Positions 1 to 31,006 of a DNA stretch of 64,000 nt are shown here, piece by piece. Each line of letters starts with the position of its first letter. The first letter of the stretch is position 1. This DNA is from Xestospongia bergquistia. Lineage: Eukaryota; Porifera; Demospongiae; Haplosclerida; Petrosiidae. The stretch lies in NCBI GenBank assembly GCA_963965975.1, contig OZ014411.1:8929501-8993500 (forward strand), given 5' to 3'. A program made the position numbers and the translations under genes. The notes beneath the pieces were generated by a model. The model was not told the origin of the DNA, made no database searches, and was given only the letters and a program-made list of their open reading frames with translations.

Positions 1-757
1 ACCTTGGTATATTTGAAAATTCCAATTAATAACCTATTTGCTAAGAAACTGAGTGTAGATATTACAATATACAATCAAAATCGAGTACCTAACACACCTG
101 GAAAGAGAGCTCGTGGTACCTGTTTTTATGTTAGCATTATTAAGTAACAACAAAAGCCTAATAAAAATCATAGTGGTGTACATGCCAAGAATGGAATAAG
201 GAATAATGAACCACTAACTGGATCATTAATTGGAATTTTCAAATACGCAAACAGTTTCAGAAGAAATTGGAATTGTAATGTTCGTCTTCAGCATCTGAAG
301 ATTAATGATAAATGAGAGTAATTATTTCAAAACACAAAGCCATCAATTTCAAAGTAGGTATCAATGCCATACCTGAATGTGACACACTATCCACTATTCT
401 ATTGACATAATCTCAAGATACAAGAGTATCTCATATGTTATCTATGACCAATATTTCTTTAATTAACTGAGACATAATACTGTGAATGATTTAAACAACT
501 TGACAACAGACATCCATTGCATATATTCTTAAGGTTAAACTTTTGAACTAAGACTTGTACAGTACTTAATAATTATGCTACATCAAATTCATGTGACATA
601 GGAACTGAACACTGAGTTAAAGCTAATGAACAATCAGCATAACTCATTTGCCAATTATAAGTAAGAGTAAGTGTATACATGACTGGATTGAACACAGATA
701 AATCAAGGAATCAAACTTGGGGTAGAAATCAGTAGATATGATAGATCACAATCTTAC
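1..757. repeat. duplicated flank and intron 1 segment of MBOAT copy A
   Basis: This stretch repeats, with moderate divergence, at about 13870-14630 and 23390-24420. There it forms part of intron 1 of MBOAT copies C and D. It includes a piece of the GGAATT-rich inverted-repeat family (about 200-300). It is therefore the downstream (minus-strand) side of copy A exon 1. No other coding sequence was seen in it. Confidence 0.7.
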
Positions 758-836
758 CCATTAGAATTCCTAGCAAAACTCGAGCCTTTGGTTCTGAGAT
801 ATCAGCTGTACTGTTTACAATCTGTGCTAGATTCAT
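758..836 (-). CDS. LPCAT3-like MBOAT acyltransferase copy A, exon 1 only (partial)
   Basis: This is a 79-nt first exon starting at ATG (836) and ending at a GTAAG donor. It encodes an N-terminus beginning MNLAQIVNSTADIS and ending GILMG, with one base left over (phase 1). Length, phase and sequence match exon 1 of the full copies at 14632-14710, 24421-24499 and 27011-27089. The remaining exons would lie left of base 1, outside the window. The exon is open and has a normal donor, so copy A could be functional, but this cannot be judged here. The alternative is an orphan exon left by segmental duplication. Confidence 0.75.
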
Positions 837-1429
837 TGTGAATATCAGTTGATCAATTATACAATAGTCAATCATTACGTATATTTGCACGGAATGTCAG
901 GCCCAGCTGCCAAAAATGACTCTGTATAAGTGAACAATCAAAGTAAACAACAGATTTCCCTATTAAGAGCAACAGATGCTCTACCCTTTATTGTTAATAC
1001 AGTGTGAACATAACAAGGAAATAGACACACTTTGTGGTCACATGGTATGATCAATGAAAGTATGGCTATACTACATTTTATCCTGCACATTTCAAGGGAT
1101 TAGTTGATGACTTGCTTCAAAACAATTTCAAATTTATAACAATAGGACATAACAGTTAACTGGCACTATTTTTTATTGTTGAGAAAATTGGTTAGAATTA
1201 ATAATTAATAATACAAATAATAGCCATCACATAATCAGCAATATTATTTTCAAGGTTTGATGATCAAATAACTTGATTACATTCTATGAAAAGATTCTCG
1301 TAATATTCAGAATAATACTTCATTACAAACTGTGATGGTTAACTTGATGATTAAGTAATGATTGACAATGTTGACTTACAATTTTTCGATTAAACAAAAA
1401 TATGACATACATCCTAAAATATTGGGACA
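837..1429. other. no gene; duplicated upstream flank
   Basis: No coding exon was recognised. The sequence is paralogous to the DNA upstream of exon 1 of copies C and D (about 14711-15060 and 24500-24700), and so may hold the promoter of copy A. No TATA-like or other motif stands out. Confidence 0.5.
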
Positions 1430-1875
1430 TATATATCAAAGGTGAAGTAAATATGATAATTGTATAATCACAAAAAACATCTTGTGCTTTTGGTCTCTTG
1501 GTGTAACAATATAAAGAAGAATTCACAATTTGTTAGTAAAATTCAGCATTTGATCACTCAGACAGCCATATTTGTCATCATCTAGTGTCTTCCATGGATG
1601 ACAAGTAGCCCTCACAATAGCAGAGTAAGTTTCTAAAATAACCTAATTATTGTTTTTAAAATTGACATCATCACTATTAAGGATTTACTACTCCACAACT
1701 AAATACATCACACAGTGGTGATACTTTGCCAGTCAGGATTTTAGGAGGAAAGTAACCTCCACTCTTGACTAACATGGGTGTAGTCCATTGTATGGTCTGA
1801 TATAGATTGTGGGAGTTCCCATGCAAATCCAAAATCACCAACAAGCTTTGAGAAATTAATACTATATCAAACACA
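1430..1875 (-). pseudogene. protein kinase C-lobe relic (IRAK/TKL-like)
   Basis: On the minus strand, 1830-1675 reads GDFGFAW (a DFG activation-segment start). After a one-base frame change it reads [26 protein letters not shown], which resembles the APE/subdomain IX stretch (PPE...G.vsp..DVFSFGVV). Further on, 1640-1530 reads CHPWKTLDDDKYGCLSDQ, and near 1510 another frame gives LYCYTKRPKAQDV, like the C-lobe Arg-Pro motif of subdomain XI. Frame breaks and in-frame stops make it a pseudogene. A sister piece lies on the plus strand at 16480-16640. The kinase assignment rests on short motifs only. Confidence 0.5.
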
Positions 1876-2689
1876 CTTAATATACTCATTGTGTTGAAAA
1901 CAACACACATATTATATATATACTAACTATAGTCTGAAATAAGGAAAATTTGATATGAATTAATTGATTAATTAAATTTCTGTCTGTTGAATTTTGTAAT
2001 ACTTTATATTTATTAAAACATTTATGTATCTATAGGTTAATTTTTATATTGAAACTAATTGACTTTTTGCATTACAATAAATTTTACTGATTGATGTTAA
2101 TTTTGGATTAACAAGAAAAAATTGACCAATTGATCTATTTTAGTGATATATATCAAAGAATTTGCATATACAGAGTTTAGAATACCTGGCTCTGCTAATA
2201 TGATTTACAGAGAATATGTTACTAAATGCTATTGAGTTATGGCACAAATTCTTGGCATAAAGTGAACTACTTTTACTTCTACAACATCAAATCATTTTAG
2301 AATTAATTATCAGAAAACATGTATTTTAAATATGAAGTAATATTATTTTTTTTATTTTTGACATCATTTTAATTTAATAACAAAGCGTTTATTATAACAA
2401 TGTTATATAGATAATTGCCAATAGATTGTGGAATTGATTAAACATCATCTAAACATTAGAATCAACTGAGTAAATATATAAAATTATAATGAAATAGATT
2501 ATTAATTTATACCATATTTCTGCAGTAGTTGTTCTTCAATATACTCTGCAATGATAATTCTGTCATTGACATCAGATAGTCCATTACATTGTCTATACTT
2601 GTATTTATATGCAGCAATCATGTAAACAACGTTAATGACGGAAATGAAAACAATATCTGTCTTATACTTTCAGATGCATGCATCCTAAT
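1876..2689. other. no feature seen
   Basis: AT-rich sequence with many short poly-A and poly-T runs. No open frame, splice-supported exon or clear repeat was recognised. Confidence 0.5.
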
Positions 2690-3525: not shown

Positions 3526-3531
3526 AAAACC

Positions 3532-3596
3532 GTGTTTTTTTTTCACAAATCAAGTCAAAAATGTTTTCACAAAAGTAGTCCCTTTTGCAAATATGG

Positions 3597-3631
<35 letters not shown>

Positions 3632-3700
3632 CAAGTCAAAAATGTTTTCACAAAAGTGGTCCCTTTTGCAAATATGGTCATATATATATATATATGGTTT
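3532..3700 (+). repeat. tandem 80-bp unit with TA microsatellite at the LINE 3' end
   Basis: Two copies of a unit starting AATCAAGTCAAAAATGTTTT and ending in (AT)n run from about 3547 to 3690. They follow directly on the LINE fragment. A degenerate version lies near 59095-59170, ending in (CA)n. This is likely a LINE 3'-end repeat. The small reading frame across it is low-complexity. Confidence 0.65.
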
Positions 3701-7338: not shown

Positions 7339-7755
7339 CTAATCAAGTACTTTCTTTTTCATAGGTAGAACCTCATACACAGCAATCCATCCTACTCCAA
7401 TAATGTATGGATAAAAATAAAAGGAGCTCCCAAACTAAAGAACAAATTAAATAACTCAACATGAAGTATAGTTTATATAATATACATATTATACCTTAAA
7501 ACAAGCCTCCCATGACAGAATATAGAAGCAAATATATGCAAAAGACATCATCAAATTCTTCAATGTAAATGCAAACAGCCATACAGGAATATAGAGTGGC
7601 CATGACAACTGATTGATATCTCCACCAATTAATTCCTTAGTATAACTTATAAACTATAATACATTTAAATTTGTTAAGTATAATTTTTTTAATCATACCA
7701 GTTTTTCAGCTGGAACTAAAATAAATACACCAAAGAAAAAGATAAAATATCCAAA
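7339..7755 (-). pseudogene. MBOAT acyltransferase copy B, 3'-end relic (exons 14 part, 15, 16)
   Basis: Exon 16 (7339-7434, 96 nt, ending VLD-stop) and exon 15 (7495-7653, 159 nt) match the full copies in length and splice sites. Exon 14 starts at its donor (7699) but breaks off near 7755, where the GGAATT/TACGGAAG repeat cluster begins, before the catalytic WHG codons. No upstream exons exist between 7755 and copy C. It is a truncated duplicate and cannot encode an enzyme. It shows that the array once held at least five units. Confidence 0.85.
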
Positions 7756-8800
7756 TAGCTTCAGACGGAATGTCCGTCTGAAGCTTCCGTATCAAATGGA
7801 TCGTTTAATTGGAATTTTTAAATATGCCAAGGTTCGCGGAAGAAATAAGAAAAAGGAATTGGAATGTACGTCTGCAGCTTCCGTGGACGGACATTCCAAT
7901 TCCTATTTCCAATTTCAATATATCTGGTTTATACGGAGTTTTAATGTCCGTCTTCAGCTTCCCTTAATAATAGAACTACATTATACAACCTAAATCAGGG
8001 ACCCAACCTAACTGGAGACATCTCGCACTAACGCTCAATTCTAAGAGACGGCTCGTGGTATAGTCGTGCTCTGCGTTTTATTAAGTAACAAGTAAAGCTT
8101 AGAAATGGCACACATGGAATTAGGAATAAGAAATTGGAACTCATCAAGTGGTTCGTTAATTGGGATTTTTTAAAATACGCCAAGGTTCGCGGAAGAAATA
8201 AGAAACAGGAATTGTCTGCGGTTTCTACGGAAGCCTCAGGCGGACATTCCAATTCCTATTAACAATTTTAATATAACGGGGTTATACGGAGTTTTAATCT
8301 CCGTTCTCAGCTTCTCATAATAATAGAACTACAATATACAACCAAAGTCAGGGACCCAACCTAAATGGAAACATCTCGCTGATGCTCAATTGTAAGAGAC
8401 GGCTCGTGGTACTCGTGCTCCACGTTTACTAAGTAACAAAAAAGCCTAGAAATGTCGCACATGCCAAAAATGGAATTAGGAATGAGAAATTGGGCTCATC
8501 AACTGGATCGTTAATTGGAATTTTTAAATATGCCAAGGTTCGCGGAAGAAATAAGAAAAAGGAATTGGAATGTCCGTCTGCGGCTTCCGTAGGTTTCCGT
8601 AAAAAATATTCCAATTCTACTTTGCAGTTTTCCCACTGCAATTCCAATTCTATATTCTATCCTTCGATGGAATATTTAACACCTAAATCCTATATTCCCA
8701 CCCTAACTGGAAACATGTTGTTTTGCTCCATTCTAAGAGACAGCTCGCAGTGCTCGTTTCAGAAATGAAGCGAACACTGCGAGCTGTCTCTTAGAATGGT
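7756..8800. mobile_element. nested cluster of TACGGAAG/GGAATT inverted-repeat elements
   Basis: At least three overlapping copies (about 7760-7990, 7990-8330, 8340-8730) share a block of the form TTAATTGGAATTTTTAAATA followed by an AAGGTTCGCGGAAGAAATAA-type block, with CTGCGGCTTCCGT termini. A near-perfect hairpin at about 8728-8800 has arms reading CATTCTAAGAGACAGCTCGC. The small frames here are mirror translations of this repeat. No gene is present. Confidence 0.65.
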
Positions 8801-9659: not shown

Positions 9660-12600
9660 CTAATCAACTGCTTTCTTTTTCTTAGGCAGAACCTGATAAA
9701 CAGCAATCCATCCTACTCCAATAATGTATGGATAAAAGTATAAAGAGCTCCCAAACTAAAGGCAATCACTCAACATGAAGTATACTTCATATATATGTAT
9801 CATATACCTTAAAACAAGCCTCCCATGTGAGTAGAAAGAAGCAAATAAATCCAAAAGACATCACCAACTTCTTCAATGTAAATGCAAACAGCCATACAGG
9901 AATATAGACTGGCCATGACAACTGATTGATATCTCCACCAATTAATTCCTTAGTATAACTTATAAACTATAATACATTGAAGATTTTTAAGTATAATTTT
10001 TAAATCATACCAGTTTTTCAGCTGGAATCAAAATAAATTCACCAAAGAAGAAGATAAAAAATCCACTCCAGAATCCATGCCATATAGACAAAAACATGGT
10101 GGCAATGAAAATGGACAGGTATTGATTACCCATCCACTTTAGACGTTTATATACATTTCTTTATAATGAGAAAGTATGTACAATATATACAATAGAACAC
10201 ACAGAATGTACAGAATATACTACTTACCTTGCTACCCATTCAGTAGTTCTAAGATTGTTGGACTTTGTAACACTCTAAACAATGCAAGTAGAATTAATTA
10301 TTGATAAGTAATTGTTATAATTAAATTATTACATGTAGTAATGATGCTTATTTGTCATTAGCTAACCTGTACTGTAATCCCAAAGTTAAACAATATCAGT
10401 TTTACATTACACAAACCACCCCAGTCCACAGCACCATCTGGTTTCACACCATCATAAGTTATTCCAGTTAAAATAGAAGAACTTTCCTAGTATAAATGTT
10501 GCACATATTTCTATTCTTTTAATTATTAATTTTAAACAGAAAGGTTCACCCTGTAATAGTTACAAGACCCATTTTCAAAGTTAGTGCAATGTTAGATAAA
10601 ATAGTTAGTTGACTTAAAAATGACTTGACTGATTAAAAATTTGTGTGCATACATATTGTACACACACACATATACATACAACAATACCATTTGACTTACA
10701 AAAAACAATCTACCATAACTTTTAAGGTTTTTAAAACATTCCATAGCAATGTTTACTCAGTTGTGCAGAAAAGTACAATTATGAAAATTCTAAAGTGGGG
10801 CCTTGGCATTTAGGTTCTCATGTGATAAATTACAATAGTAACATCATATAAACTTACAGCAAAAATCCACACACATAAATAACAGTGCATAGCACCTGTA
10901 GCAGTTGGTATTATGACAGCAAGTCTGTATAGTAAACTACTATTCTATAGACATAATAAAGTGGTAGAATGATATATAGTATTAAGTGGTCGTTCTTACA
11001 AGATATTCATCAGTTATTACATATTGTAATGGGAAATAATGACTAAATACAATAAAGATGACAGTTGCAATCAGAAAATGTACAAATCTCAGCAGACTTG
11101 CAGGAACGCTATATAAGTCATATATCATTAATAGATTTTTATAAATATGTACCTGCTAGGTGTTATATTTCTGTCATATAGAGTTCCTGAAACAAACATT
11201 TGGTATCTTATGAAAGGAAACTAATAATACACTATAATAAATCAAAGATATTTTGACTACAAATGTATTACCACTGGTCCAACCAATATTGTACAAAAGA
11301 AATAGCAATATCCAAAGAACTGAAAAGATAGAACAGAAATGACAGATTATTAATATATCTCAGATGTATATTACTGTAAAAATTAATTAGTTGATTTAAC
11401 TAATATACATGGTTTTAGAAGTTATACAAAATGTAAACATAATACTATATTGATTACTAATGTATTATGACATTGATAGTTATGTAGCTATATAAACAGT
11501 AGAATATAGTAATGAATACAGTATTATGATTACTTGTTAGACCAAAAATAAATTTGTAATTGCAAGCTGTATAACCAATAATGATTAAATTAACCAATCA
11601 AATTTTACAATGATATATATACATATACCTCAATAAAAGAGGGTAGTTCTTTGATTTGAAATTTCTTTTGTTCTTCAGTCAACAATGTCTATAATTATTA
11701 TAATATTTATTGTTAGATTATGATCTAATTTATTTACTTCTTTCCTGCCACCATCATACAAACTAGTAGCTAAGTCTATAATATGAGTAGATAAAGTTGG
11801 GATTGTATACTACAACATATAATTGACTTACCAATTAACTTCAATACCATTACACATTGAGGAAATATCCAATTATAAGGATAAAGAACACCAGAGTAAT
11901 AAAGCACAGCATCCCCATATAAAAGATGACTCTTTAAAGAAAATAAAAATCAACTTTTGTCATGGCTTAAATTTGATTGTCACAAAAGTATTGTTTTGTC
12001 ACATAACAATCAGTTACCATAGTAACAATCCATGTTAAGAATAAGGAGAACTTTGTTCCTCCAAAAAGATATAGAATACAATAGACAATAATGATGTCTA
12101 GTAAAGAGTGCCAGATATCAGTACCTAGCAAGTGTAAGAAATGTGTTATTAGTTATAGACATATGTAGTGAACTAACCAAATACATAGTACATAATAATA
12201 AAACCACCAAGACTTGAAAATAAATTCTAAAATAATATAAGAAATAATGAATAAATAGAAACAAGATTATAATTATAAACATTATTTTAAAATTGTTCAA
12301 CAATGCTGATATTGTGATATTATGGCAAAATTATTGTTGTTAACTATGAAGAGAGAAAATATAATTATATTGATTCTAACAATTAGTCATGCTAAATTTT
12401 GGGCAAAGTGTCACATTTTATTGGTGAATTTTGGAGTTTAAAGCTACAAAATAACTTGCAAGTAATTTTACAAAATTAGAGGGTGTTTCCATGCCAAATC
12501 AATTATTAAAAATGGTAATTTATGAATGTGCTATAGAGTGGGTTGTAAGAGGATATCATGTCTTCTAGGACCCTAACATTGGTAACAGGTTTGATTATCA

Positions 12601-14710
12601 CATATAAACATAACATAAAGCTTTTGAAGATGACATGTTAATATCAATGTAGCTTAAAACAATCTTTAAACAGCCTAGAAGGCCTTGTGTGATAGGCAAA
12701 AATATGATTGCTTTAAGGTAAGTAGTCCTATATGTTTGTCTTAGTATTGTAAATGAGACAAGAACATTCCAAAAAGAGATGGTCTCATTTAATTTAAACA
12801 ATCAATTCCTTGTATCCTAATGAATAAATTAGTGTTTCAGCTTTTATACATGATATAAGTCTAAAAATGGAGTCATTGATCATCAGAGCATAAAGAAATA
12901 ATTCACAAGTGTGTCTTATAAGATAAAAGGAACTATACCTGGTATAAAGGATTACAATATTAATACTAGATACTACTGTTGTAATCCTTTTAAGAAAAAT
13001 GGGATATTTTTTGGTTGCAATAATAAATGAGTTAATTAATACATTGAACACAAGAGCCTACAGTAATGCAGTCATGATTACCTTGGCTAATTTTGAGTCA
13101 GTAACACTTATCAATTGTCGAAAGATAAAGGCCATCGGATAACCTGTAATGATACAATAATAGGTCAATATTAAATATATGTTTAACAATTTTCTATAAC
13201 AAGACTATAAAGGTATTTATTTGGTTAACTATATGCAAATTATTTGTTATTGTGATTAAAATAACTGTGATAACAAATCATTACGTAATAATACAAATAA
13301 ATGAATATGTAAATATCTCATTTAAATGTACAGCTTGTTGTAAACATTTCTATTAAAATGACAGATTTGAAACAATTCCAACTAAATGGAATAATGATGT
13401 GTAAAACGAAGGCATCTGAGAATGACAGTCACAGTAATAGTAGCTGTTCTGCTAGCTTTAATTCTAGCTCTTCAATTCTAGTAACTCTGTTTCCAACAGA
13501 AAAAGGTTTTTCTGAGTTATGTTGTTCATTTAATCATTGAATGATCTCTATCTTTGTTTTGCCAGCCTTTTTTATCTCTTAAAAAAAATATAAATATCTC
13601 ATAAATCTTTCCTCTCTTTTCTCAAAACATCTTTTTCATTCTCTTCTTCGTTTAGTCTTCCTATTGCTTACAAGTATATGCTAGTTTCCATAATTTAGAG
13701 ATAATTATAATATACGATAATGTACACACAGCCTCGGATGACCCCACCCACCCCCGTAGATGGATAGATTTTAATTACCAATAACTGTGTAACTCTCTCA
13801 AGCTTGTCCCACAGAATTCTATTTCATTACTATGGTAGTCGAGGACAGACATTACAATTTCTATTTCTTCTGTGCACTTTGGTATATTTGAAAATTCCAA
13901 TTAATAACCTATTTGCTAAGGAAGCTGAGTGTAGGTATTAAAATATACAATCAAAATCAGGAACCCAACACAACTGGAAACATATCACTCACACTTGATT
14001 TTAAAAGACAGCTTGTGGTACTTGTGTTCCACATTAATATTATTAAGTACCAAGAAAAACCTAATAGAAATTATTAATGGTGTACATGCCAAGAATGGAA
14101 TAAGGAATAATGAATTGGAACTTGTCAACTACATCGTTAATTGGAATTTTCAAATATGCAAACATTTTCAGAAAAAATAGGAATTGTAATGTCCATCTTT
14201 AGCAACTGTACATTGCTGATAAATGACAGGAATTATTTCAAAGCACAAAGCCATCAATTTCAAAGTAGGTATCAATGCCATAATCTCAAGATACAGAAGT
14301 ATCTCATGTTATCTATGACCAATATTTCTTTAATTAACTGATAGACCTAATACTATGGATGATTTAAACAAACTTGACAACAGACATCCATTGCATATAC
14401 TCTTAAGGTTAAACATTTGAACTAAGACTTGTACAGTACTTAATAATTATGCTGCATCAAGTTCATGTGACATAGGAACTGAACACTAAGTTAAAGCTAA
14501 TGAACAATCAGCATAATTTATTTGCCAATTATAAGTAAGGGTAAGTGTATACATGACTGGATTGAGCACAAATAAATCAAGGAATCAAACTTTGGGTATA
14601 AATCAGTAGATATATTAGATCACAATCTTACCCATTAGAATTCCTAGAAACAATTGAGCCTCTGGTTCTGAGATATCAACTGTACTGCTTAAAATCTGTG
14701 CTAGATTCAT
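9660..14710 (-). CDS. LPCAT3-like MBOAT lysophospholipid acyltransferase, copy C
   Basis: Predicted multi-pass ER enzyme that reacylates lysophospholipids. Sixteen exons were traced (14710-14632, 13143-13082, 12226-12178, 12124-12018, 11931-11832, 11775-11738, 11688-11629, 11319-11272, 11220-11153, 11108-11000, 10944-10858, 10486-10367, 10274-10228, 10158-10011, 9966-9808, 9755-9660). They give 459 codons including TAG, with exon lengths identical to copy E. Motifs match LPCAT3: IGYPMAF, YDGG, LVGP, ILTGI, WVARN.YKRLK and the catalytic IWHGFW. The MBOAT asparagine (NLRTTEW) is kept, although a nearby Asn seen in the other copies is Thr. The tail is lysine-rich (PKKKKAVD). Intron 7 contains a MITE. 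The family call is strong; substrate choice is unknown. Confidence 0.88.
11372..11617. mobile_element. MITE in intron 7 of copy C
   Basis: About 245 bp bounded by inverted arms: left CTGTAAAAATTAATTAGTTG, right ending AACCAATCAAATTTTACA. The internal arms GGTTATACA and TGTATAACC also pair. The same element sits in the same intron of copies D and E, and as a solo copy at 57483-57727. It is noncoding. Confidence 0.7.
13860..14631. repeat. repeat-rich part of copy C intron 1
   Basis: Matches the window start (1-757) and 23390-24420. The 13860-14200 part carries the GGAATTTTCAAATATGCAAA block of the GGAATT family. Here the paralogous site that is interrupted in copy D is uninterrupted (about 14115-14140). 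Confidence 0.65.
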
Positions 14711-16479: not shown

Positions 16480-16640
16480 ATGAGGGCTAAATGTCATCCA
16501 TGGAAAACACTAGATGATGAAAAATATGGTTGTCTGAGTGATCAAAGGCTGAATTTTATTGACAAATTGTTAATTCTTCTTTATATTGTTACACCAAGAG
16601 ACCAAAAGCATAAGACTTTTGTTGTGATTATACAATTATC
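16480..16640 (+). pseudogene. protein kinase C-lobe relic, sister of 1430-1875
   Basis: The plus strand reads YSAIMRAKCHPWKTLDDEKY followed by GCLSDQRLNFIDKLL. It is nearly identical to the minus-strand relic at 1640-1520. Here the frame stays open a little longer, and the Arg-Pro motif again lies in another frame. It is inverted relative to the first copy and adjoins the Ty3/gypsy fragment. Only a fragment is present. Confidence 0.45.
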
Positions 16641-16810
16641 ATATTTACTTTACCTTTGATATATAAGTCCTAAAATTTAGGATACAAATGTTATGTCATA
16701 TTTTTGTCTAATCGAAAAAATTGTAAGTGAACACGTGTCGATTATTATTTAAAGGAAGTAATCATCAAGTTAACCATCACAGTTTGTAATGAAGTATTGT
16801 TCTTAATATT

Positions 16811-17716
16811 ATGAGAATCTTTTTATGGAATGTAATCATGTTAGTTTATAATCTAGTTGATTTTCACTCAAAATGGTTAGATGCTCATATTATGCATAAT
16901 ATTACTTCCTCTAGAACCATAGAGAAGCTAAGACAGATTTTCTCAATTCATGGACTTCCAAGGAAAATTGTAACTGATAATGGACCGTCATCAGCTCCGT
17001 ATCATCCTTCCACCAATGGACTAGTGGAAAGGGCAGTACAGACAGTGAAAAGAGGACTTCAATGTATACAAGGTAGTTCCATACAAGAAAAATTGTCTAA
17101 GTTTTTATTCACACACTGGATTACACCTCATTCTACTACAGGTGTTGCACCTTCAGAACTTTTAATGGGACGAAGACTTCGATCTCGCCTAGATGGATTG
17201 TTTCCTAAAGTAAATAAGAAGATAGAGTCTTGACAAGAGAAACAGAAAGAAATTTATGACAAAAATTGATCCCTAAGAAAATTCAATGTTGGTGACCTAG
17301 TTCTTGCTGAAGATTTTAGAGCAACAGGGTCCAAGTGGATGCCAGGAGCAGTGTTGAAAGTGACAGGTCCTTTGTCGTACCAGATCAAGTTAGTAAATGG
17401 TAACACTGTTCATTGTCATATTGACAATGTTAGAAGAAGATATAGTGCAGTAGACATCAATGTAGCTACTAGTACAGACTTTAAACCACAAACAAACTCT
17501 GATAATGATCTAGCAGACATTGCCGTGGATTCAACAGTTAATTCAGACTCATTCACTGAACAGTCTTTTCCAGTCCTAGCTCCTACGTCTACTAATGGAC
17601 ATTCGAGTTCCCTTGAATCTCAAGTTGATACGTCATCTGTTGATGTGCCAGTACGTCATTCCACTCAAACAAGTAGACCTCCCAAAAGTAGTTTTCTATT
17701 TGTTAGTACTTATTGA
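16811..17716 (+). mobile_element. Ty3/gypsy retrotransposon fragment: integrase core and C-terminal domain
   Basis: The frame from 16811 gives an integrase core (DFHSKW, then VTDNGPSSAPYHPSTNGLVE). The stretch normally found between TDNGP and the APYHPS box is missing, so the core carries an internal deletion. TGA stops occur at 17231 and near 17265. After them, FNVGDLVLAEDF and WMPGAVLKVTGPLSYQI continue as the usual post-integrase domain, followed by a Ser/Thr-rich tail ending RPPKSS. Gag, protease and reverse transcriptase are absent. It is an inactive 3' fragment. Confidence 0.85.
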
Positions 17717-18470: not shown

Positions 18471-19489
18471 CTAATCAACTGCTTTCTTTTTCTTAGGCAG
18501 AACCTGATACACAGCAATCCATCCTAATCCAATGACATGAGGATAAAAGTATAAAGAGCTTCCAAACTAAAGAACAAATTCAATCACATAACATGAAGTA
18601 TAGTTTATATAATATATATATAAAACACCTTAAAACAAGCATCCCATTTGAGCAAAAAGAAGCAAATAAATGCAAAAGACGTCATCAAATTCTTCAATGT
18701 AAATGCAAACAGCCATACAGGAATATAGACTGGCCATGACAACTGATTGATATCTCCACCAATTAATTCCTTAGTATAACTTGTAAACTATAATACATTA
18801 AAAATTGTTAAGCATAATTTTTGAATCATACCGGTTTCCCAGCTGGAACCAAAATAAATTCAGCAAGAAAAGTGATAAAAAATCCACTCCAGAATCCATG
18901 CCATATAGACAAAAACATGGTGGTAATGAAGATGGACAGGTATTGATTACCCATCCATTTTAGACGTTTATATACATTTCTTTATAAAGAGAAAGTATGT
19001 ATAAAAAATATGATAGAATACACATAATGTACTGAATATATTACTTACCTTGCTACCCATTCATTAGTTTTAAGATTGTAGGACCTTGTAGCACTCTAAA
19101 CAATGCAAGTAGAATTAATTATTGATAACTAATTGTTATAATTAAATTATTATATGTAACAGTGATACTGATTTGCCATTGGCTTACCTGTATTGTAATC
19201 CCAAAGTTAAACAATATCAGTTTTACATTACACAAACCACCCCAGTCCACAGCACCATCTGGTTTGAGGCCATCATATGTTATTCCAGTTAAAATAGAAG
19301 AACTTTCCTAGTATAAAAGTTGTGGATATTATTAAACAAAAAGTTACTTTGTATATAGGTCCATTTTCAAAATTAGTACATTATGTTAGTTGGCCTAAAA
19401 ACTGACTGGCAAATTCAACTCAACCAATTAAAAATCTGTGTGTATAGATATTACACATACATATATGCAAATATATATGTATAAAGACA

Positions 19490-19521
19490 TATCTATCTAT
19501 CTATCTATATGTGCACATATA

Positions 19522-19571
<50 letters not shown>

Positions 19572-19600
19572 GTGTGTATATATATATATACATACATGCA
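19490..19600. repeat. TA/CTAT/GT microsatellite in intron 11 of copy D
   Basis: ATCTATCTATCT followed by a long (AT)n and (GT)n tract. Copy E has a (GATA)n tract at the corresponding intron position (30011-30044), and copy C has a short (CA)n there. Confidence 0.8.
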
Positions 19601-20297
19601 GATGTTAAAAAACACCATTGACTTACAAAAACAATCTATTATAACTTTAAGTTTTTAAAAAAATTGATAGCATAAACAATTGAGCAGAAAAGTAGAAACC
19701 CATGGCAATTATAAAAATTGGGTCCTTGACATTTTGGTTCTCATCATGATAGATTACAATAGTAACATCATATAAACTTACAGCAAAAATCCATACACAT
19801 AAGTAAGAGTGTGTAGCACCTGTCGCAGTTGGTACCATGACAGCAAGTCTGTATAGTAAACTACTATTCTATAGACACAATAAAGTGATAAAATGATATA
19901 TAGTATTAAGTGGTCATTCTTACAATATATTCTTCAGTTATTACATATTGTAATGGGAAATAATGACTTAATAGAATAAATATGGCTGTTGTAATCAAAA
20001 AATGTATAAATCTCAGCAGACTTGCAGGAACGCTATATAAGTCATGTATCATTAATAGATTTTTATAAATATGCACCTGCTAGGTGTTATATTTCTGTCA
20101 TATAGTGTTCCTGAAACAAACATTTGGTATCTTATGAAAGGAAACTAATAATACACTACAATAAATCAAAGATATTTTGACTATAAATGTATTACCACTG
20201 GTCCAACCAATATTGTACAAAAGAAATAGCAATATCCAAAGAACTGAAAGGATAGAACAGACATGACAGATCATTAATATATCTCAGATGTATTATT

Positions 20298-20527
20298 AAT
20301 GTAAAAATTAATTAGTTGATTTAAGTAATACATGGTTTTACAGGTTATACAAAATGTATTATATTGATTACTAATGTATTATGAAATTGATAGTTACGTA
20401 GCTATATAAAAAGTAGTATTATAGTAATGAATACAGTGATTACTTTTTAACAAAAATAAGTTTATTTTTTGCAAGCTATATAACCAATAATGATTAAATT
20501 AATCAATCAATTTTTACAATGATATAT
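20298..20527. mobile_element. MITE in intron 7 of copy D
   Basis: Orthologous in position to the intron 7 element of copies C and E, with the same inverted arms (GTAAAAATTAATTAGTTGAT and AATCAATCAATTTTTACA). It was present before the gene was duplicated. Confidence 0.65.
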
Positions 20528-22099
20528 ATACATATACCTCAATAAAAGAGGGTAGTTCTTTGATTTGAAATTTCTTTTGTTCTTCAGTCAACAATGTCTA
20601 TAATTATTATAATATTTATTGTTAGATTATGACTAATTTATTTACTTCTTTCCTGTCACCATCATACAAACTAGTAGCTAAGCCTATAATATGAGTAGAT
20701 AGAGTTGGGCTTATATACTAGAACATATAATTGACTTACCAATTAACTTCAATACCATTACACATTGAGAAAGTGTCCAGTTATAAGGATAAAGAACACC
20801 AGAGTAATAAATCACAGCATACCCATATAAAAGATGACTCTTTAAAGAAAATAAAAATCAACTTTTGTCATGGCACTAAATTTGATTGTCACAAATGTAA
20901 TGTTATGTCGCATAACAATCAGTTACCATAGTAACAATCCATGTTAAGAATAAGGAGAACTTTGTTCCTCCAAAAAGATATAGAATACCATAGACAGTAA
21001 TGATGTCTATTAAAGAGTGCCAGATATCAGTACCTAATAAGTGTAGGAAATATGTTAGTAGTTATAGACATATGTAGTGAACTAACCAAATACATAGTAC
21101 ATAATAATAAAACCACCAAGACTTGAAATAAATTCTAAAATAAAATAAGAAAGATTGAATAAATAGAAATAAGATTATAATTATAAATATTATTTTAAAA
21201 TTCTTCCAACAATGCTGATATTGTGATGCTACAGCAAAATCATTGTTGTTAACTATGAAGAGAGAAAATATAATTATATATTGATTCTAACAATTAGTTG
21301 TGCTAAATTCTGGGTAAACAGTCAATTTTCATAGGCTAATTTAGTAAATTAAAGCTACAAAATATCTTGCAAGTAATTTTTAAAGCAAAATTAGAGGGCA
21401 TTGCCATGCCAAATCAATTATTAAAATGGTCATCTATGAATGTGCTCTAGTGTGTTGTGAGAATAATGCTTTCTAGGACCCTAACATTGGTGACAGATTT
21501 GATTATCACATACAAACATAATATAAAACTTTTAAAGAAGACATGTTGATATCAATGTGGCCCAAAACAATCTCTAAACAACTTAGCAAGCTTTGTGTGA
21601 TAGACAAAATATGATTGCTTTAAGGTAGGTAGTCCTATATGTTTGTCTTAGTATTGTAAGTGAAACGGGCACATTCCAAAAAGAAATTCAATTTAAACAA
21701 TGGGTTAATTTGGAGAGAACTGTATATTCCTATGTCCTAATGAATGGATTAGTGTTTAAGTTTTTATACATGATATAAGTCTAAAAATGGTGTCATTGAA
21801 CATCAGAGCACAAAGATATCATTCACACGTGTGTCTTATAAGATTAAAGGATATATACCTGGGTACAAAGTATAAAGGATTACAATATTAACACTAAATA
21901 CTATTGTTGTAATCCGTTGAAGAAAAATGGATATTTCTTTTGTTACAATAGTAAATGAGTTAATTAATACATTTAATGACAGGAACCTTCACTGATGTAT
22001 TCATAATTACCTGAACTAATTTTGAGTCAGTAACACTTATCAACTGTCTAAAGATAAAGGCCATTGGATAACCTGTAATGATACAACAATAGGTCAATA

Positions 22100-23265
22100 T
22101 TAAATGTATTTTTAATAATTTTCTATAACAAGACTATAAAAGTATTTATTTGGTTAACTATACACAAATTATTTGTTACTGTGATCAAAATGACTGTATT
22201 AACAAATCATAACCTAATAATACAAATAATGAATATATAAACATCTCATTTAAATGTACAGCTTGTTGTAACATTTCTATCAAAATGACAAAATTAAAAC
22301 AATTCCAACTAAATGACTAATGATGCATAAAATAATTGCTATTCTTTACATAACTGACATGAGTACATTGTTATTTACAGAGTGACTGTAAATAACTCTT
22401 ACAAAATCATTAATATTTCACTAAAGCATATCAACCTGTTAGAATGTACACTTTCATATAATTCATTGGGCTTCAGACATATTTTAATATCATTACTGAT
22501 TGTGATGGGCTCATTGATGTGATAAGTGTTATTGTGTGTGATAAGTGTTATTATGTGTGATAGTATATTATTTTAGTTATCATTTATTTGGATTAGTGTT
22601 AATAACTGTTACTTGCACCTCTATTGTTCTTGTAATTTATGTTAAGTGTGTTGATATACATTTCTTAGCGCTAGTTTCTCTAGTGATATTTTTTCATTTA
22701 CACTATTCTTTGTTTTGTACACTATTTAAACACTGTTCTGTTTGTAATAAATTAGTCTTTTTTGTGATATTAAAATTACCCTGTCAACTTGGTGACTAGC
22801 TGTGCTTGTGTAGCACCATACCTCTTCTATCTAATCCTTCACACTAATAGTAATATAGCTAGGAAAATCTAGACCATTTAGTGAAACAATTCTGAGGCCC
22901 TGAACGAACAATATTGTATATGGGTATGATAACTAATATAGCTCTTTTAGTAACTATGTTTTTAACAGAAAAAGCTTTTCTGAGTTATGTTATCCATTTA
23001 ATCATTATATATTGGTTGATCTCTATCTTTGCCTTGTCAGCCTTTCTTATGTGTTATCTAAACTCTCTGCTTGTATTCATATCTGTCTCTCATTGTAAGC
23101 CATTGTTACATTCATTCAGCTCTGATTCTGCTTGTCTTCATACCCTTCATCCATGTCTGCCTCTCTCAAGCTCTTCTTGTCTTCTTTCAACTGTCTCTGC
23201 TCACTTTTTTACTTAAGTACAGACGTTTTGCTATTGTCCACTATAGTTTGGTGGCTACCAGTGCT
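22100..23265. other. copy D intron 1, unassigned part
   Basis: Shares blocks with 13200-13560 (for example the AAAGCTTTTCTGAGTTATGTT stretch). The 84-, 100- and 101-codon plus frames at 22545-23376 are pyrimidine-rich, lie within the intron and show no family motif. Confidence 0.45.
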
Positions 23266-23376
23266 GTGTTTGCCGAGTTAAAGCAGTTCAAAGCCATTTA
23301 CCCGGGTACACACACACACACACACACACACACTGACAGACTACACTTGCTATGCGCCCATGCACAGCGAGGTTAA
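23266..23376. repeat. 110-bp dispersed repeat with internal (CA)n
   Basis: Contains GAGTTAAAGCAGTTCAAAGC, then CCCGGGTA, (CA)n, and TATGCGCCCATGCACAGCGA. An inverted copy lies at about 27885-28010 in intron 2 of copy E. The two positions in the gene differ, so these are separate insertions. Confidence 0.65.
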
Positions 23377-23569
23377 CAATATACTATCAAAATCAGGTAC
23401 CCAACACAACTGGAAACATATCACTCACACTTAATTTTAAGAGACAGCTCGCGGTACTTGTGTTTCGTGTTAATATTATTAAGTACCAAGAAAAGCCTAA
23501 TAAAAATTATTAATGGTGTACGTGCCAAGATTGGAATAAGGAATAATGAATTGGAACTCATCAACTAGA

Positions 23570-23919
23570 TATGGAAGCCACAGACAGACATTCCAATTCC
23601 TTTTTCTTATTTCTTCTGCCAACCTTGGCGTATTTAAAAATTCCAATTAACGATGCAGTTGATGAGCCCAATTTCTCATTCCTAATTCCATTTTTGGCAT
23701 GTGCGACATTTCTAGGCTTTTCTTCTTACTTAATAAAACGCAGAGCACGAGTACCACGAGCTGTCTCTTAGAATCGAGGGTCATCGAGATGTTTCCAGTT
23801 AGGTTGGGTCCCTGACTTTGGTTGTATATAGAAGCTGAGAACGGACATTAAAACTCCGTATAACCCCGTGATATAAAAAATGGAAATAGGAACTGGAATG
23901 TCCGTCTGCGGCTTCCGTA
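23570..23919. mobile_element. MITE insertion with target-site duplication in intron 1 of copy D
   Basis: About 350 bp whose left end reads ATGGAAGCCACAGACAGACA and whose right end, reverse-complemented, reads TACGGAAGCCGCAGACGGAC. ACTAGAT flanks it on both sides (23564-23570 and 23920-23926). The paralogous intron of copy C reads straight through this point (about 14115-14140). Inside are the GGAATT-family blocks in reverse order. It has no coding capacity. Confidence 0.75.
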
Positions 23920-24718
23920 ACTAGATTGTTAATTGGAATTTTCAAATATGCAAACATTTTCAGAAAAAATAGGAATTGGAATGTCAGTCTTCAACAACTG
24001 TACATTACTGATGAATGACAGGAATTATTTCAAAGCACAAAGCCATCAATTTTTAAAGTAGGTATCAATGCCATACCTGAATGTGAAACTATCCACTATT
24101 CTATTAATATAATCTCAAGATACAAGAGTATATCATGTTATCTATGACCAACATTTCATTAATTAACTGATAGACGTAATACTTTGCATGATTTAAACAA
24201 CTTGGCAACAGACATCCATTGCATATATTCTTAAGTTTAAACTTTAACTAAGATTTGACAGTATTTACTAATTATGCTGCATTATGAACTAAAGCTAATG
24301 AACAATCAGCATAATTCATTTGCCAATTATAAGTCAGACTAAGTGTATACATGACTGGATTGAGCACAGGGAATCAAACTTGGGGTAGGAATCAGCAGAT
24401 ATGTTAGATCAGAATCTTACCCATTAGAATTCCTAGCAAAAATTGAGCCTCTGGTTCTGAGATATCAGCTGCACTGCTTACAATCTGTGCTAGACTCATT
24501 GTGAATATGCAGTTGATCAATTGTCTAATAGTCAATCACTATGTATATTTGCACGGAAGGTTAAGCCCATGCAGCAGCCAAAAAGGACTCCGTATAAGAG
24601 AACTGTCAAAGCAGACAACAGGTTTCCCTATTTAGAGCAACAACAGATGTTCTACACTTCTTTGTTAATACAGTGTGAACATAAGAAGGAAATAGACAAC
24701 CTGTTTTAATAACTAAGA

Positions 24719-24784
24719 TACAACAGTTGATCATACATTTCTAATTGTATATATACAATTAGAAATGTATGATCAACTGTTGTA
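24719..24784. repeat. perfect 66-bp palindrome
   Basis: Each arm is 33 bases with no mismatch. The left arm contains CAACAGTTGATCATACATTT and the centre is TATA/TATA. It could extrude a cruciform, or mark a MITE solo terminus or inverted junction. Paralogous DNA in copy C (about 14930-14960) has only one arm-like sequence. Confidence 0.9.
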
Positions 24785-26682
24785 ATGGGATAAAGTCTGC
24801 AGATTTCCTTATTAAGAAAAAGCAACATATTCTCTCCAGGAATAAAACAATTCCTTTATAATCCTTAGATATTTGACATCATATACTTTATTTGTAGCTA
24901 TAGATTACCCTAACTGTCAAGACTGACTCCTAACTGATGTCTCCATTTTCAATAATAATAATTATTAAGGTATTATGCTGTAATTGTTATACAAAAAAAC
25001 ATAGCGTCCAAATTTTATCTGACACATGGATGGCTATGATTAGTTATCGTCATATGGTTTAGCAATCCATACTTGAATTGATGGATATTTAAATATCTAT
25101 TTTGACTTCTATATATCTTATATTTTAAGTTTTTCTCAAAAGATAATGTGGCTCAACTTGCCAATGACAAATTGCGGCCAACAAGTGGCTTTTCAAATTT
25201 TCAGGAGCGTGTTATAAACAGCTGGTTTGTAAACATAAGTTAAAGTTGTGAATTCCGGAGTGTATAGTTCCCACTGTATCTACAATCAGATTACTGTATT
25301 GAAAATTGCCAAGTGGCTGCCTTTGGATAGCCTTTCGTTTAAAATACCAGTCTAATATGAAAGAAAGATCATACATATATGGGACAATGCATCAAAATCC
25401 AACATGGTAAAAATGTAAACCTTTTTTTTTTATTTTGTATTATTATTAAATAGAAAATAGAATGTTGGTGGTCTCAATTATGTTACTACAAACTGGTGGA
25501 TTACTTTTGCACAAGTATGTAGATTATTTGTAAATTTAACAGACATGTTACAATAGGTATACACTGGCATATTGTACAGTTGACCTTATTGTTAGAATTA
25601 TTAGAATTTTTAGACAACTGGAACTCACATAGAAATAGATTTAATTCAAAGACATCACTGCCATCTGGCAAAGTATGGCTATACCATATTTTATCAAGCA
25701 CATTTCAAGAGATTAGTTGATGACTTGCTTCAAAACAATCTCAAATTTGTAACAAAAGGACATCACAGTTAACTGGTACTATATTTATTCTTGAGAACAT
25801 TGATTAGAGCTGATAACTCATTTTCAAACTTTTATAATTAAATAACTTGATTACATTTTATGAAATGATTATCATTATGTGAAGAGCAACACTTCATTAC
25901 AAACCTTGATGGTTAACTTGATGATTACAACTTCCTTTAAGTAATGATTGACAAGTGTTCACTTATAATTTTTCGATTACACAAAAATATGACATAATCC
26001 CACATTTTTAAGACCTATATTTTTAAAAGTAAAGTAAATACAATAATTGTAGAACACAAAGACACATTCATTTTAAAAATAGCAATTACTAGTATGATAA
26101 TAAAATATAAGCAATTAACCTATTACAAGTGACATTTTTATGTGGAAGATACTTCATCACCATCAACACCGATAATGCATTGAAAAAGGAGTGGCTGGTC
26201 AACAAATATCTCAAGCAATGAAGAGAAATCCATGATTTTATATTGAGGACAATACCAGGTATACTCACAATTTGGATGAATTGAAGAAATAACAACAATT
26301 GGAATTGATGTATGTGAATATTTCAGACTTGGAGTGAGGTATGATGTGAATGAAACAGGTGTACATGTACAGAAAATACTATTGTCTCATACTTGAATGA
26401 TGGGAGTCTATGCATTCTAAATTCATGTCTTTTTGCAGCAGTATACAGCATGTATAAAAAACACTAATAACTTCTAATTAGTTAAATACTTATTGTCATC
26501 ATTGCTAGCTTCAGATAAAGTAACATCTGAAATTTATAAAAAACTTAAAGTTAAAATTTGTTTGGTGAAATAAAAAAATGAATATTAAAAACAATAATAT
26601 ACCCAAACAACCAAGTCTTTTTCTCAATTTGTGATCGCTTTCTTTATAGCACTGTTCTTTAGCCATATTTTAATTAACCTGT

Positions 26683-26720
26683 AGGCGTGGCTCTGTGCAA
26701 TCACATGACGCAAAGATAGC
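26683..26720 (+). promoter_or_regulatory. candidate promoter element upstream of copy E
   Basis: TAGGCGTGGCTCTGTGCAAT followed by CACATGACGCAAAG is a GC-rich patch in AT-rich DNA, 290-330 bp upstream of the copy E ATG. Similar GGGCGTG/CACGCC patches sit close before HS1BP3 (49885-49912) and the ankyrin kinase (52927-52936). It looks like a KLF/Sp-type GC box, but this is inference only. Confidence 0.3.
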
Positions 26721-27010
26721 ACAACATTCTATTGGCTTTGTTGAAATTTAAAAAATGAGCAGGACTGATTACCAATTCCTTTTAAAAAATAGTCTCAAAG
26801 CCAGAAGTTCTGCATGGGGGATGGAATTTGCATTCAAAGCTGGCGTTTTGCACTGATGTTAAACTCCCGCTCAACACTCAAAATACTTAAAACTACAAGT
26901 AATTAATAAGGTGTGGTTATCCAGTATCTTAGGAATGTGCTGCTGCTGGGGCATACGTTGCTAATTTTAACAGAGTAACTCTAGTGCAATTGATCAAGTA
27001 CATATTCACA

Positions 27011-30000
27011 ATGAATCTGACAGAGATTGTAAGCAGTATAGCTGATATCTCAGAATCAAAGGCTCGATTTTTTCTAGGAATTCTAATAGGTAAGATTGTG
27101 ATTTAACATATCTACTGATATTTTACCAAAATTTTGATTCCTAGATTTATCTGTTCTCAATCCAGTCATGTATACACTTACTCTTACTTATAATTGGCAA
27201 ATGACTTGTGCTGATTGTTCATTAGCTTTAGCTCAGTGTTCAGTTCCTATGTCACATGAACTTCATGTAGCATGAATAATAAGTATGGTATTGAAATAGT
27301 TGGTTTTGTACTTTGTAATAATTCCTGTCACTCATCAGTAATGAAACGATAATGAGTCTGTGAAGCCCAATGAATTATGAAAGTGTATATTCTAACAGGT
27401 TAATATACTTTAGTGAAATGGTAATTATTTTGTCACTCAAAATAATAGTGTACTTATTACAGAATAGTGATCATTTTACACATCATTAGTCCATTTAATT
27501 GGAATTGTTTTAATTCTGTTGTTTTCATAGAAATGTTAAAACCAGCTGTATATTTAAATGAGATGTTTACATATTCATTATTTGTATTATTAGGTTATGA
27601 TTTGTTATTACAGTCATTTTAATTACAATAACAAATATTTGTGTATTGTTAACCAAATAAATACTTTTATAGTCTTGTTATAGAAAATTGTTAATAATTA
27701 TTATATTTAATATTGACCTATTGTTGTATCATTATAGGTTATCCAATGTCCTTTATCTTTAGACAGTTAATAAGTGTTACTGACTCAAAATTAGTCCAGG
27801 TAATTTTGACTATATTACTAAGTGCTCTTGTGTTTAAATGTATTAATTAACATAGAAATGCATTTTGTTTACTGTCTGTTAATGCATTAACCTCGCTGTA
27901 CATGGGCGCATAGCGATAGTTACTATAGTCTGTCAGTGTGTGTGTGTGTGTGTGTCTGTTACCCGGGCAATCGGCTTTGAACTGCTTTAACTCAGCAAAG
28001 GAGCGTGAAACAAACAAAAAGCTTTTAAAGTCTGAAAAACCTTTGAAAAAAAGCACAGCTTTCAGTGAAGACTTGAGAATTCAATAAAAACCTCCTGCAT
28101 TCAGCTAATAACATTTTTCAACTTTTCAAAGTGAGAATTTTGGCAAAAATACTTCTTTGGAAAATTATGACAGTTTTACTAGCTTTTGGCAGAATCACTG
28201 ACTTTTACTAAGAAGTTGGAAAGTATTGGAACTTTTGTCAATTAGAGTGCAAAGTACCCACTAGACGCACTAAACAGTAAAGCTTTTCCCCTTGATTGAA
28301 GAGAAATGCTGAGTCATCAATAATTGTCTTGTGCATCACGTGAGATTACGTCACTTGAGGAGGCTAAAGTCTCTTGATAAGACCGCAGCTAGGTTAAGCA
28401 CTTTAGTTCATTTCATTTTATTTTAGAATTTATTTTCAAGTCTTGGTGGTTTCATTTTGATGTACTATGTACTTGGTTAGTTCACTGCATATGTCTATAA
28501 CTAATAACACATTTCCTACACTTACTAGGTACTGATATCTGGCACTCTTTAGTAGACATCATTACTGTCTATGGTATTCTATATCTTTTTGGAGGAACAA
28601 AGTTCTCCTTATTCTTAACATGGATTGTTACTATGGTAATTGATTGTTATGTGACATAACAGTACTTTTGTGACAATCACATTTAGTGACATGACAAAAG
28701 TTGATTTTTATTTTCTTTAAAGAGTCATCTTTTATATGGATATGCTGTGATTTATTACTCTGGTGTTCTTTATTGTTATAACTGGGCAATACCTCAATGT
28801 GTAATGGTATTGAAGTTAATTGGTAAGTCAATTATATGTTGTAGTATACAATCCCAACTTTATCTACTCATATTATAGACTTAGCTACTAGTTTGTATGA
28901 TGGTGGCAGGAAAGAAGTAAATAAATTAGATCATAATCTAACAATAAATATTTTAACAATTATAGACATTGTTGACTAAAGAACAAAAGAAATTTCAAAT
29001 CAAAGAACTACCCTCTTTTATTGAGGTAAAAATGTAAATACAACTATAAAAATGTATTTATTAATTTAATCATTATTAGTTATACAGCTTGCAATTACAA
29101 ACTTATTTTTGTTAAAAAGTAATCATAATACTGTATTCATTACTATATTCTACTGTTTATATAGCTACATAACTATCAATGTCATAATACATTTGTAATC
29201 AATATAGTATTATGTTTACATTTTGTATAACCTGTAAAACCATGTATATTAGTTAAATAAATTAATTAATTTTTACAGTAATATACTTCTGAGATATATT
29301 AATAATCTGTCATTTCTGTTCTATCTTTTCAGTTCTTTGGATATTGTTATTTCTTTTGTACAGTATTGGTTGGACCAGTGGTAATATACTTATAGTCAAA
29401 ATATCTTTGATTTATTATAGTGTATTATTAGTTTCCTTTCATAAGATACCAAATGTTTGTTTCAGGAACACTATATGACAGAAATATAACACCTAGCAGG
29501 TACATATTTATAAAAATCTATTAATGATACATGACTTATACAGTGTTCCTGCAAGTCTGCTGAGATTTGTACATTTTTTGATTGGAGCTGCCATATTTAT
29601 TCTATTAAGTCATTATTTCCCATTACAATATGTAATAACTGAAGAATATATTGTAAGAATGACCACTTAATACTATATATCATTTTATCACTTTATTGTG
29701 TCTATAGAATAGTAGTTTACTATACAGACTTGCTGTCATGATACCAACTGCAACAGGTGCTATGCACTCTTATTTATGTGTATGGATTTTTGCTGTAAGT
29801 TTATATGATGTTACTATTGTAACTTATCATGATGAGAACAGAACGTAAGGCCCCACATTAGAATTTTTATAATTATAATGTGTTTCTACTTTTCTGCACA
29901 ATTGCTTTAACATGTTATGGAATGTTTTAAAACATTAAAAAGTTATAGTACATTGTTTTTTGTAAGTCAAATGGTATTTTTTGACATCTGCATGTACGTG

Positions 30001-30013
30001 TATATATAGAGAT

Positions 30014-30045
<32 letters not shown>

Positions 30046-31006
30046 TGAATATATATGTAAAATGTATATTATGCATACAAATTATTAATTGGTTGAGTTA
30101 AAGTTGGCCAGTCAGCTTTTAGACCAACTCTTTTATCTGACATGATGCACTAACTTTTATACTAGGAAAGTTCTTCTATTTTAACTGGAATAACATATGA
30201 GGGCCTCAAACCAGACGGTGCTGTGGACTGGGGTGGTTTGTGTAATGCAAAACTAATATTGTATAACTTTGGGATTACAATGGAGGTTGGCTAATGACAA
30301 ATCAGCATCATTACTACATATAATAATTTAATTATAACAATTAGTTATAAATAATTAATTCTTCTTCCATTGTTTAGAGTATTACAAAGTGTGTCAATTT
30401 TAGAACTAATGAATGGGTAGCAAGGTAAGTAGTATATTCTGTACATTAATATTCTGTGTATTCTATCGTATATTATGTACATACCTTCTCTTTATAAAGA
30501 AATATATACAAACGTCTCAAGTGGATGGGTAATCAATACCTGTCCATTTTTATTGTCGTCACATTTTTATGCATATGGCATGGATTCTGGGCTGGATATT
30601 TTTTCTTCTTTTTTGGTGAATTTATTTTGGGTCCAGCTGAAAAACTGGTATGATTCAAAAATTATACTTAAAAATCTTCAAATATTTTATAGTTTTTAAG
30701 TTATATTAAGGAATTACTTGGTAGTGATATCAATCAGTTGTCATGGCCAGTCTATATTCCTGTATGCCTGTTTGCATTTACATTGAAGAATTTGATGATG
30801 TCTTTTGCATTTATTTGCTTCTTTCTGCTCACATGGGAGGCTTGTTTTAAGGTATAATACACATATATATAAACTGTACTTCATGTTGACTGATTGAATT
30901 TGTTCTTTAGTTTGGGAGCTCTTTTTATTTTTATCCATACATTGTTGGAGTAGGATGGATTGCTGTGTATCAGGTTCTACCTAAGAATAAGAAAGCAGTT
31001 GATTAG
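27011..31006 (+). CDS. LPCAT3-like MBOAT lysophospholipid acyltransferase, copy E
   Basis: Predicted ER membrane enzyme transferring acyl-CoA chains to lysophospholipids. Sixteen exons join in frame: 27011-27089, 27738-27799, 28427-28475, 28529-28635, 28723-28822, 28879-28916, 28966-29025, 29333-29380, 29432-29499, 29544-29652, 29708-29794, 30166-30285, 30378-30424, 30500-30647, 30693-30851, 30911-31006. The product is 458 aa (human LPCAT3 is slightly longer). Landmarks: SLYDGG near 142, TVLVGPV then a GTLYDR segment near 195, ITYEGLKPDGAVDWGGLCN near 280, the MBOAT asparagine in VNFRTNEW (N316) and the catalytic histidine in CIWHGFW (H352). The donor after exon 12 is GTTGGC, weaker than GTAAGC or GTTAGC in D and C. 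It is inverted relative to copies A-D. Confidence 0.9.
27885..28010. repeat. inverted copy of the (CA)n dispersed repeat in intron 2 of copy E
   Basis: Reverse complement of 23266-23376, including the TGCGCCCATGTACAGCGAGG-type block and (TG)n. A 69-codon minus frame across it reflects the repeat, not a gene. Confidence 0.6.
29038..29283. mobile_element. MITE in intron 7 of copy E
   Basis: Same element and same intron as in copies C and D, in the corresponding orientation. The arms are degraded at the 5' side. Confidence 0.6.
30011..30046. repeat. (GATA)n microsatellite, intron 11 of copy E
   Basis: About eight GATA units in a row, matching in position the CTAT tract of copy D. Confidence 0.9.

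Follow-up and report, generated by a model that had tools for sequence, protein, structure and literature searches.

Animals usually have just one gene for LPCAT3, the enzyme that determines which acyl chains membrane phospholipids carry. Why, then, does one locus of the demosponge Xestospongia bergquistia carry a row of LPCAT3-like genes, and are these genes decaying, misassembled, or under selection to differ? The locus lies in a 64,000-nucleotide stretch (the window, C1:8929501-8993500, in a searched genome whose 21 contigs total 146.46 Mb), and comparison of the window with itself reveals large homologous blocks in its left half. An earlier note had described there a tandem plus inverted array of five LPCAT3-like genes, A to E, "in all stages of decay", and had proposed a recent expansion of membrane-lipid remodelling genes.

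Gene models for all five copies were recovered at the places given in that note (Table 1), and the family match is not a chance one. The two copies that were scanned, C and E, score far above the cut-off of 27 for Pfam MBOAT (PF03062), with E 2.2e-33 and 116.4 bits for C and E 3.4e-33 and 115.8 bits for E. In a search of solved structures with copy C, chicken LPCAT3 was the best relative (7f3x, E 6.2e-64), ahead of MBOAT7 (8erc, 2.6e-12) and PORCN (0.016). The copies share with chicken LPCAT3/MBOAT5 (7f3x, 7ewt) an MBOAT domain and align with it over nearly the full length at 30-34% identity. MBOAT7/LPIAT1 (8erc) is likewise an MBOAT lysophospholipid acyltransferase with a WHG motif, but its match to copy C is far weaker.

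The structures of the copies bear out most of what had been claimed for them. C and the inverted copy E, both spliced by hand, are complete: each has 16 exons encoding 458 amino acids, every intron is GT-AG, and all sixteen exon lengths agree (79, 62, 49, 107, 100, 38, 60 and 48 nt for exons 1-8; 68, 109, 87, 120, 47, 148, 159 and 96 nt, stop included, for exons 9-16). D and B were modelled with a spliced protein-to-DNA aligner written for the analysis. D departs from the C and E exon lengths at one place, exon 3 (21134-21087), which has 48 nt rather than 49; a TTTT run has become TTT, shifting the frame at codon 50. The rest of D is open, with 15 of 15 introns GT-AG. B is a 5'-truncated, three-exon 3' end, made up of exons 15 and 16 and the final part of exon 14, whose reading frame is open. 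A had been seen as an exon 1 with its body outside the window, and extension to the left located that body: the whole gene (C1:8925428-8930336) is intact, with all 458 codons, GT-AG introns and a stop after codon 458, so that A as a decayed or solitary exon is rejected. The offsets between exon 1 copies, put at about 13.9 and 9.8 kb, measure 13,874 and 9,789 bp. D and E stand head to head, their start codons separated by 2,511 bp; the note had already described the region between them as divergent.

Table 1. Positions of the LPCAT3-like copies and related features (window positions, unless a contig is named)
Feature	Location	Strand	Description
Copy A, exon 1	758..836	-	Spliced alignment; start at 836
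Copy A, exons 2-16	C1:8925428-8928946, left of window	-	Spliced alignment
Copy B, relic	7342..7752	-	Exon 14 end 7752-7699, exon 15 7653-7495, exon 16 7434-7342
Copy C	9660..14710	-	Intact 16-exon LPCAT3-like gene, 458 aa; exon 1 starts at 14710; hand splicing
Copy D	18474..24499	-	16 exons, one T missing in exon 3; exon 1 starts at 24499; spliced alignment
D/E intergenic region	24500..27010	.	Divergent; pieces homologous to X2/X3 intergenic region
Copy E	27011..31006	+	Intact inverted 16-exon LPCAT3-like gene, 458 aa; exon 1 starts at 27011; hand splicing
Whole array	C1:8896975-8960503		32 kb of it left of window
X2/X3 intergenic region	C1:8911266-8913934		Homologous to D/E intergenic region
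Q1	C1:10523056-10527524		Intact LPCAT3-like copy
Q2	C1:10550554-10554918		Intact LPCAT3-like copy, 27 kb from Q1
T1	C1:21.30 Mb		LPCAT3-like model
T2	C1:21.31 Mb (C1:21307600-21310600)		LPCAT3-like model
U1	C6:25.6 kb		LPCAT3-like model
S1, S2, S3, S5, S6, broken S4, one fragment	C6:2.46-2.51 Mb		LPCAT3-like

Several repeats accompany these genes. A 353-bp tandem repeat (7791-8579) adjoins the break of relic B, and related sequences occur in the first introns of A, C and D (104-303, 13830-14198 and 23373-23998); the repeat is possibly a mobile element or a recombination substrate. Positions 16415-16853 are an inverted copy of 1259-1680. At 16793-17716 an integrase-like open frame (a weak Pfam rve match, below cut-off) is followed by a frame without a match, perhaps a decayed retroelement.

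The array continues beyond the window. To its left, besides the body of A, lie four further members, two of them intact, one truncated and one a relic, giving nine members found, in the order X1(-), P1(+), X2(-), X3(+), A(-), B(-), C(-), D(-), E(+). X2 is truncated, retaining exons 1-11 plus pieces of exon 12, and the relic P1 preserves exon 16, some of exon 15 and a fragment of exon 8, interspersed with the pieces of X2. A mosaic inside X2 (C1:8904311-8905085: exon 8 piece on the plus strand, exon 12 piece on the minus strand, exons 15-16 on the plus strand) looks like the remains of a divergent partner of X1. The phrase "all stages of decay" claims too much: X1, X3, A, C and E, five of the nine members, are intact, D has its single-base lesion, X2 is truncated, and B and P1 are relics.

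The proposed recent expansion is supported by a search of the genome with C and U1, which found 17 LPCAT3-like gene models, 14 of them (X1, X3, A, C, E, Q1, Q2, S1, S2, S5, S6, T1, T2 and U1) without frameshift, internal stop or truncation; this sets the sponge apart from the chicken LPCAT3 system in having at least 14 lesion-free models in one genome. The other three are D, with its one frameshift, the truncated X2, and S3, whose first exons are ambiguous. Because only the best candidates were scored, the locus counts are lower bounds, and the starts of S1, S2, T1 and T2 were inferred from in-frame ATGs just upstream. X1, X3, A, C, E, Q1 and Q2 agree in the length of every one of their 16 exons; in the S, T and U models a few exons differ in length from those of the array copies, and U1 and S3 have one GC-AG intron each. 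Q1 and Q2 are 99.6% identical over 4.5 kb, with longer upstream pieces at 97.8-99.2%, and could be a very recent duplication or a duplicated haplotype.

Other features were met in passing. The window contains a single 367-aa open frame with no Pfam match at E 0.01 (34077-35180), an open frame with a PX domain (50994-51446, E 2.7e-9) and a single 624-aa open frame in which a repetitive coiled-coil-like stretch precedes a protein kinase domain (54955-56829, E 7.6e-32). Elsewhere in the genome, cathepsin-L-like matches cluster at C9:1502757-1523261 and C9:3183978-3187133. The active site could be read in 12 of the 13 segments examined; its catalytic residue is Cys in 11 of them and Ser in one (C9:3186392). 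Among PDB entries this Ser-type segment, joined by hand from pieces, matches cathsilicatein (1.5e-25) and silicatein alpha (9.4e-25) best, with only a slight lead over cathepsin L1 (1.1e-24); silicateins are described as spicule proteins of marine sponges (PMC6233156), and the segment is thus modest evidence for a demosponge host.

How did the array arise? In a nucleotide tree its members form one clade with Q1 and Q2 (support 100/100). C joins D (98/94), A stands beside them (85/91), X1 joins X2 (97/94), and E and X3 have no supported placement. In the protein tree, where the chicken and MBOAT7 branches are long, the order runs from U1 and the T copies through S6 and the remaining S copies to the array. 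The D/E intergenic region is homologous to that between X2 and X3 in pieces along its length (72-95% identity, with an internal stretch inverted), and the region upstream of X1 matches parts of both halves of it, which leads us to conclude that on at least one occasion duplication copied a whole divergent pair. Matches of A and C to the D/E region that exceed 100 bp are confined to its first 1.56 kb, at the D end. E as a simple inverted copy of D is rejected: the tree joins D to C and leaves E unplaced, and the upstream flank of E resembles that of X3.

Sequence has also been exchanged between copies. A run test for gene conversion detected a tract linking D and E that covers 151 bp or more of exons 10-11 (global p 0.016), plus another, between X3 and D, in intron 11 (p 0.034); the remaining 19 of the 21 pairs were not significant in this test. 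Mean intron identity is 0.91-0.97 for introns 3-6 and 8-10 and 0.75-0.92 for the other introns. Synonymous divergence broadly parallels the introns, being low in exons 3-9 and also in exons 1, 13 and 15. Intron 2 of E (27851-28410) has about 50% identity to its counterparts in A, C and D and cannot be aligned with them, and a stretch within it (27887-27999) resembles part of intron 1 of D.

The copies can be compared with the LPCAT3 structure. As described in PMC8617236, LPCAT3 takes in acyl-CoA through a vertical tunnel, from which the acyl chain bends into a side pocket; a horizontal tunnel accommodates the lysolipid, and transfer is driven by N352 and H388. Among 13 sponge copies compared, the catalytic Asn352 and His388 are kept in all 12 that cover these sites (X2 is truncated before them), as are the CoA-docking K365 and K368; E401 is conserved as well. 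The catalytic histidine sits in WHG in every model covering the position except T2, which has RHG. Unlike in chicken LPCAT3, two further CoA-docking residues are changed, K373 being replaced by Q and R409 by K in 11 of 12 covering copies, with S6 the exception. Of the headgroup tyrosines, Y143 has given way to I, L or V in all 13 copies, and Y298 is L in seven and C in one, with Y kept in five; Y151 is kept in 12 of 13, and Y394 is Y or F in 12 of 12. The side-pocket residue F344 has become G, I, V, M or L.

We therefore asked with codon site models, written for the analysis, how selection is distributed over the protein. Q1 (a near-duplicate of Q2), S6 (diverged), T1, T2 and U1 were left out, and X2 contributed its first 295 codons only. 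Pairwise dN/dS is 0.39-0.80 among the array copies and Q1/Q2, the Q1-Q2 pair, with no synonymous change, being excluded. For the 12 copies M0 gives an omega of 0.58, and M2a is preferred over M1a at p 4.5e-10, with 6.4% of sites at omega 4.0; for the six intact copies of the C1 type, in which Q2 represents the Q1/Q2 pair, the corresponding p is 1.8e-6, with 3.9% of sites at omega 6.8. Comparison of M8 with M7 agrees. Such site tests can be inflated by gene conversion, and because conversion breaks the assumption of a single tree, we repeated the test segment by segment, each with its own tree and without X2. The signal persisted in exons 10-16 (p 3.3e-7), including exons 10-12 (p 1.6e-5) and 13-16 (p 0.0016) taken separately; segment-specific trees gave no positive selection in exons 1-2 (p 0.95) or 3-9 (p 0.85). 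A pN/pS of 2.5 in exon 1 had looked like positive selection, a reading we reject because pN there (0.129) equals the mean divergence of intron 1 (0.129) and the test of exons 1-2 with their own tree is not significant.

To locate the variable sites, 21 residues named in PMC8617236 were mapped onto the copies through the alignment with chicken LPCAT3; L155 of that source, where the chicken sequence used has W, was retained. Seven of them, including E401, are catalytic or CoA-docking, and their mean posterior omega is 0.26. The other 14, which lie along the acyl side pocket, at the phosphocholine site or along the sn-1 chain, average 1.53 versus 0.71 elsewhere over the 12 copies (permutation p 0.0004; stratified by exon group, p 0.00025) and 1.96 versus 0.71 over the six intact copies (p 0.0001). 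Model-free counts of residues at the contact positions give p 0.00055 and 0.00245, and the enrichment holds without the two exon-1 residues (p 0.00175). The strongest sites in the 12-copy fit, with chicken numbers in brackets, are 308 (F344), 259 (295), 413 (449) and 315 (351, beside catalytic N352), followed by 19 (57), 262 (Y298) and 20 (L58, posterior 0.81). Site 308, in the side pocket, has a posterior of 1.0 and keeps it with segment trees; with these trees, sites 19, 20 and 262 drop to posteriors not above 0.8, and the pocket enrichment weakens (exons 10-16, p 0.021; 13-16, p 0.06; 3-9, p 0.13). When the whole contact set is shifted along the protein, the mean is 1.60 at offset -1, 1.53 at 0 and 1.37 at +6; since -1 scores as high as 0, the enrichment is regional rather than residue-exact. 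Statistically, then, a small class of sites with omega above 1 is enriched at or beside the predicted positions of the acyl side pocket, headgroup and sn-1 chain.

Could the same pattern come from relaxed constraint, the copies being redundant dosage duplicates in an ordinary birth-and-death process, most of them on the way to pseudogenes, with variation in the pocket simply tolerated? The overall omega of 0.58 agrees with this, D, X2, B and P1 are indeed broken, and the pN of exon 1 equals the mean divergence of intron 1. Moreover, the private changes of seven copies (72 nonsynonymous, 25 synonymous) are near neutral, which implies that relaxed constraint does contribute. As a full account, however, it faces a class of sites with omega above 1 (p 1e-6 to 1e-10), catalytic residues that stay invariant while adjoining pocket sites change, and 14 of 17 models free of frameshift, stop or truncation, and we consider it the less probable, though still a serious, explanation. 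A narrower doubt concerns D, which would be a sixth intact array gene if its missing T were a sequencing or assembly error. The lesion is the sole one in 16 exons with intact splice sites, and D has no further signs of decay, its private changes (13 nonsynonymous, 3 synonymous) resembling those of intact A (13:1) and E (14:4). A run of four Ts is, however, short for a long-read homopolymer error, and we think an error somewhat unlikely. That allelic haplotypes were stitched side by side, the alternative raised in the earlier note, is very improbable for the window, because A, C, D and E differ by 11.5-14.2% when their introns are pooled (by 6.6-9.0% in introns 3-10 and 12-15 taken alone) and occupy a fixed, differing order, with different neighbours and orientations, inside one 28-Mb contig, even if the Q1/Q2 pair at 10.5 Mb is a possible case.

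We accordingly favor, with moderate confidence and from sequence comparison, a young LPCAT3-like array that is turning over, in which birth-and-death expansion would be combined with diversifying selection around the predicted substrate chamber; "stages of decay" should be replaced by a description of this kind. Duplication created the copies, the divergent gene pair being copied as a block at least once, and with rearrangement, truncation and a short gene-conversion tract it produced the present mixture, in which relics and one frameshifted copy stand among intact genes. The copies have retained the catalytic Asn and His and vary in the predicted chamber walls. Rodent Esp and Mup genes, birth-and-death families under positive selection (PMC3477143), offer a parallel in their recent duplicates within one genome. 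They differ in that gene conversion had, according to the abstract of that source, only a small role, whereas the D-E tract is supported here, and in that the sponge genes encode a membrane lipid acyltransferase with its variable sites around the substrate chamber.

What might the variation be for? The copies are probably ER-membrane enzymes of the Lands cycle, which would transfer the acyl group of acyl-CoA to a lysophospholipid, and duplication may have sampled different acyl-chain or lysolipid preferences. The excess variation near the predicted lipid-holding positions suggests that members of the array may be diverging in the lipids they prefer. The demand could conceivably come from the very long, unusual acyl chains of demosponges: sponge fatty acids of at least 24 carbons are reported as a major share of membrane phospholipids (PMC7840048). 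A link between the array and these demospongic acids (PMC7840048, PMC2992992) is speculative. In its fullest form, a toolkit of lysophospholipid acyltransferases with differing acyl-chain and headgroup preferences, tuned by positive selection around the substrate chamber and shuffled by conversion, that loads demospongic acids into specific phospholipid positions, the idea is a long shot. Among the matches listed in open-licence PMC literature, we found no description, for sponges or more widely, of an expanded LPCAT3 or MBOAT family. Overall, the 14 or more lesion-free copies, with their variation around a predicted chamber, would amount to a natural mutagenesis series for acyl-chain selectivity, and they make it testable how demosponges build fatty acids with at least 24 carbons into their membrane phospholipids.
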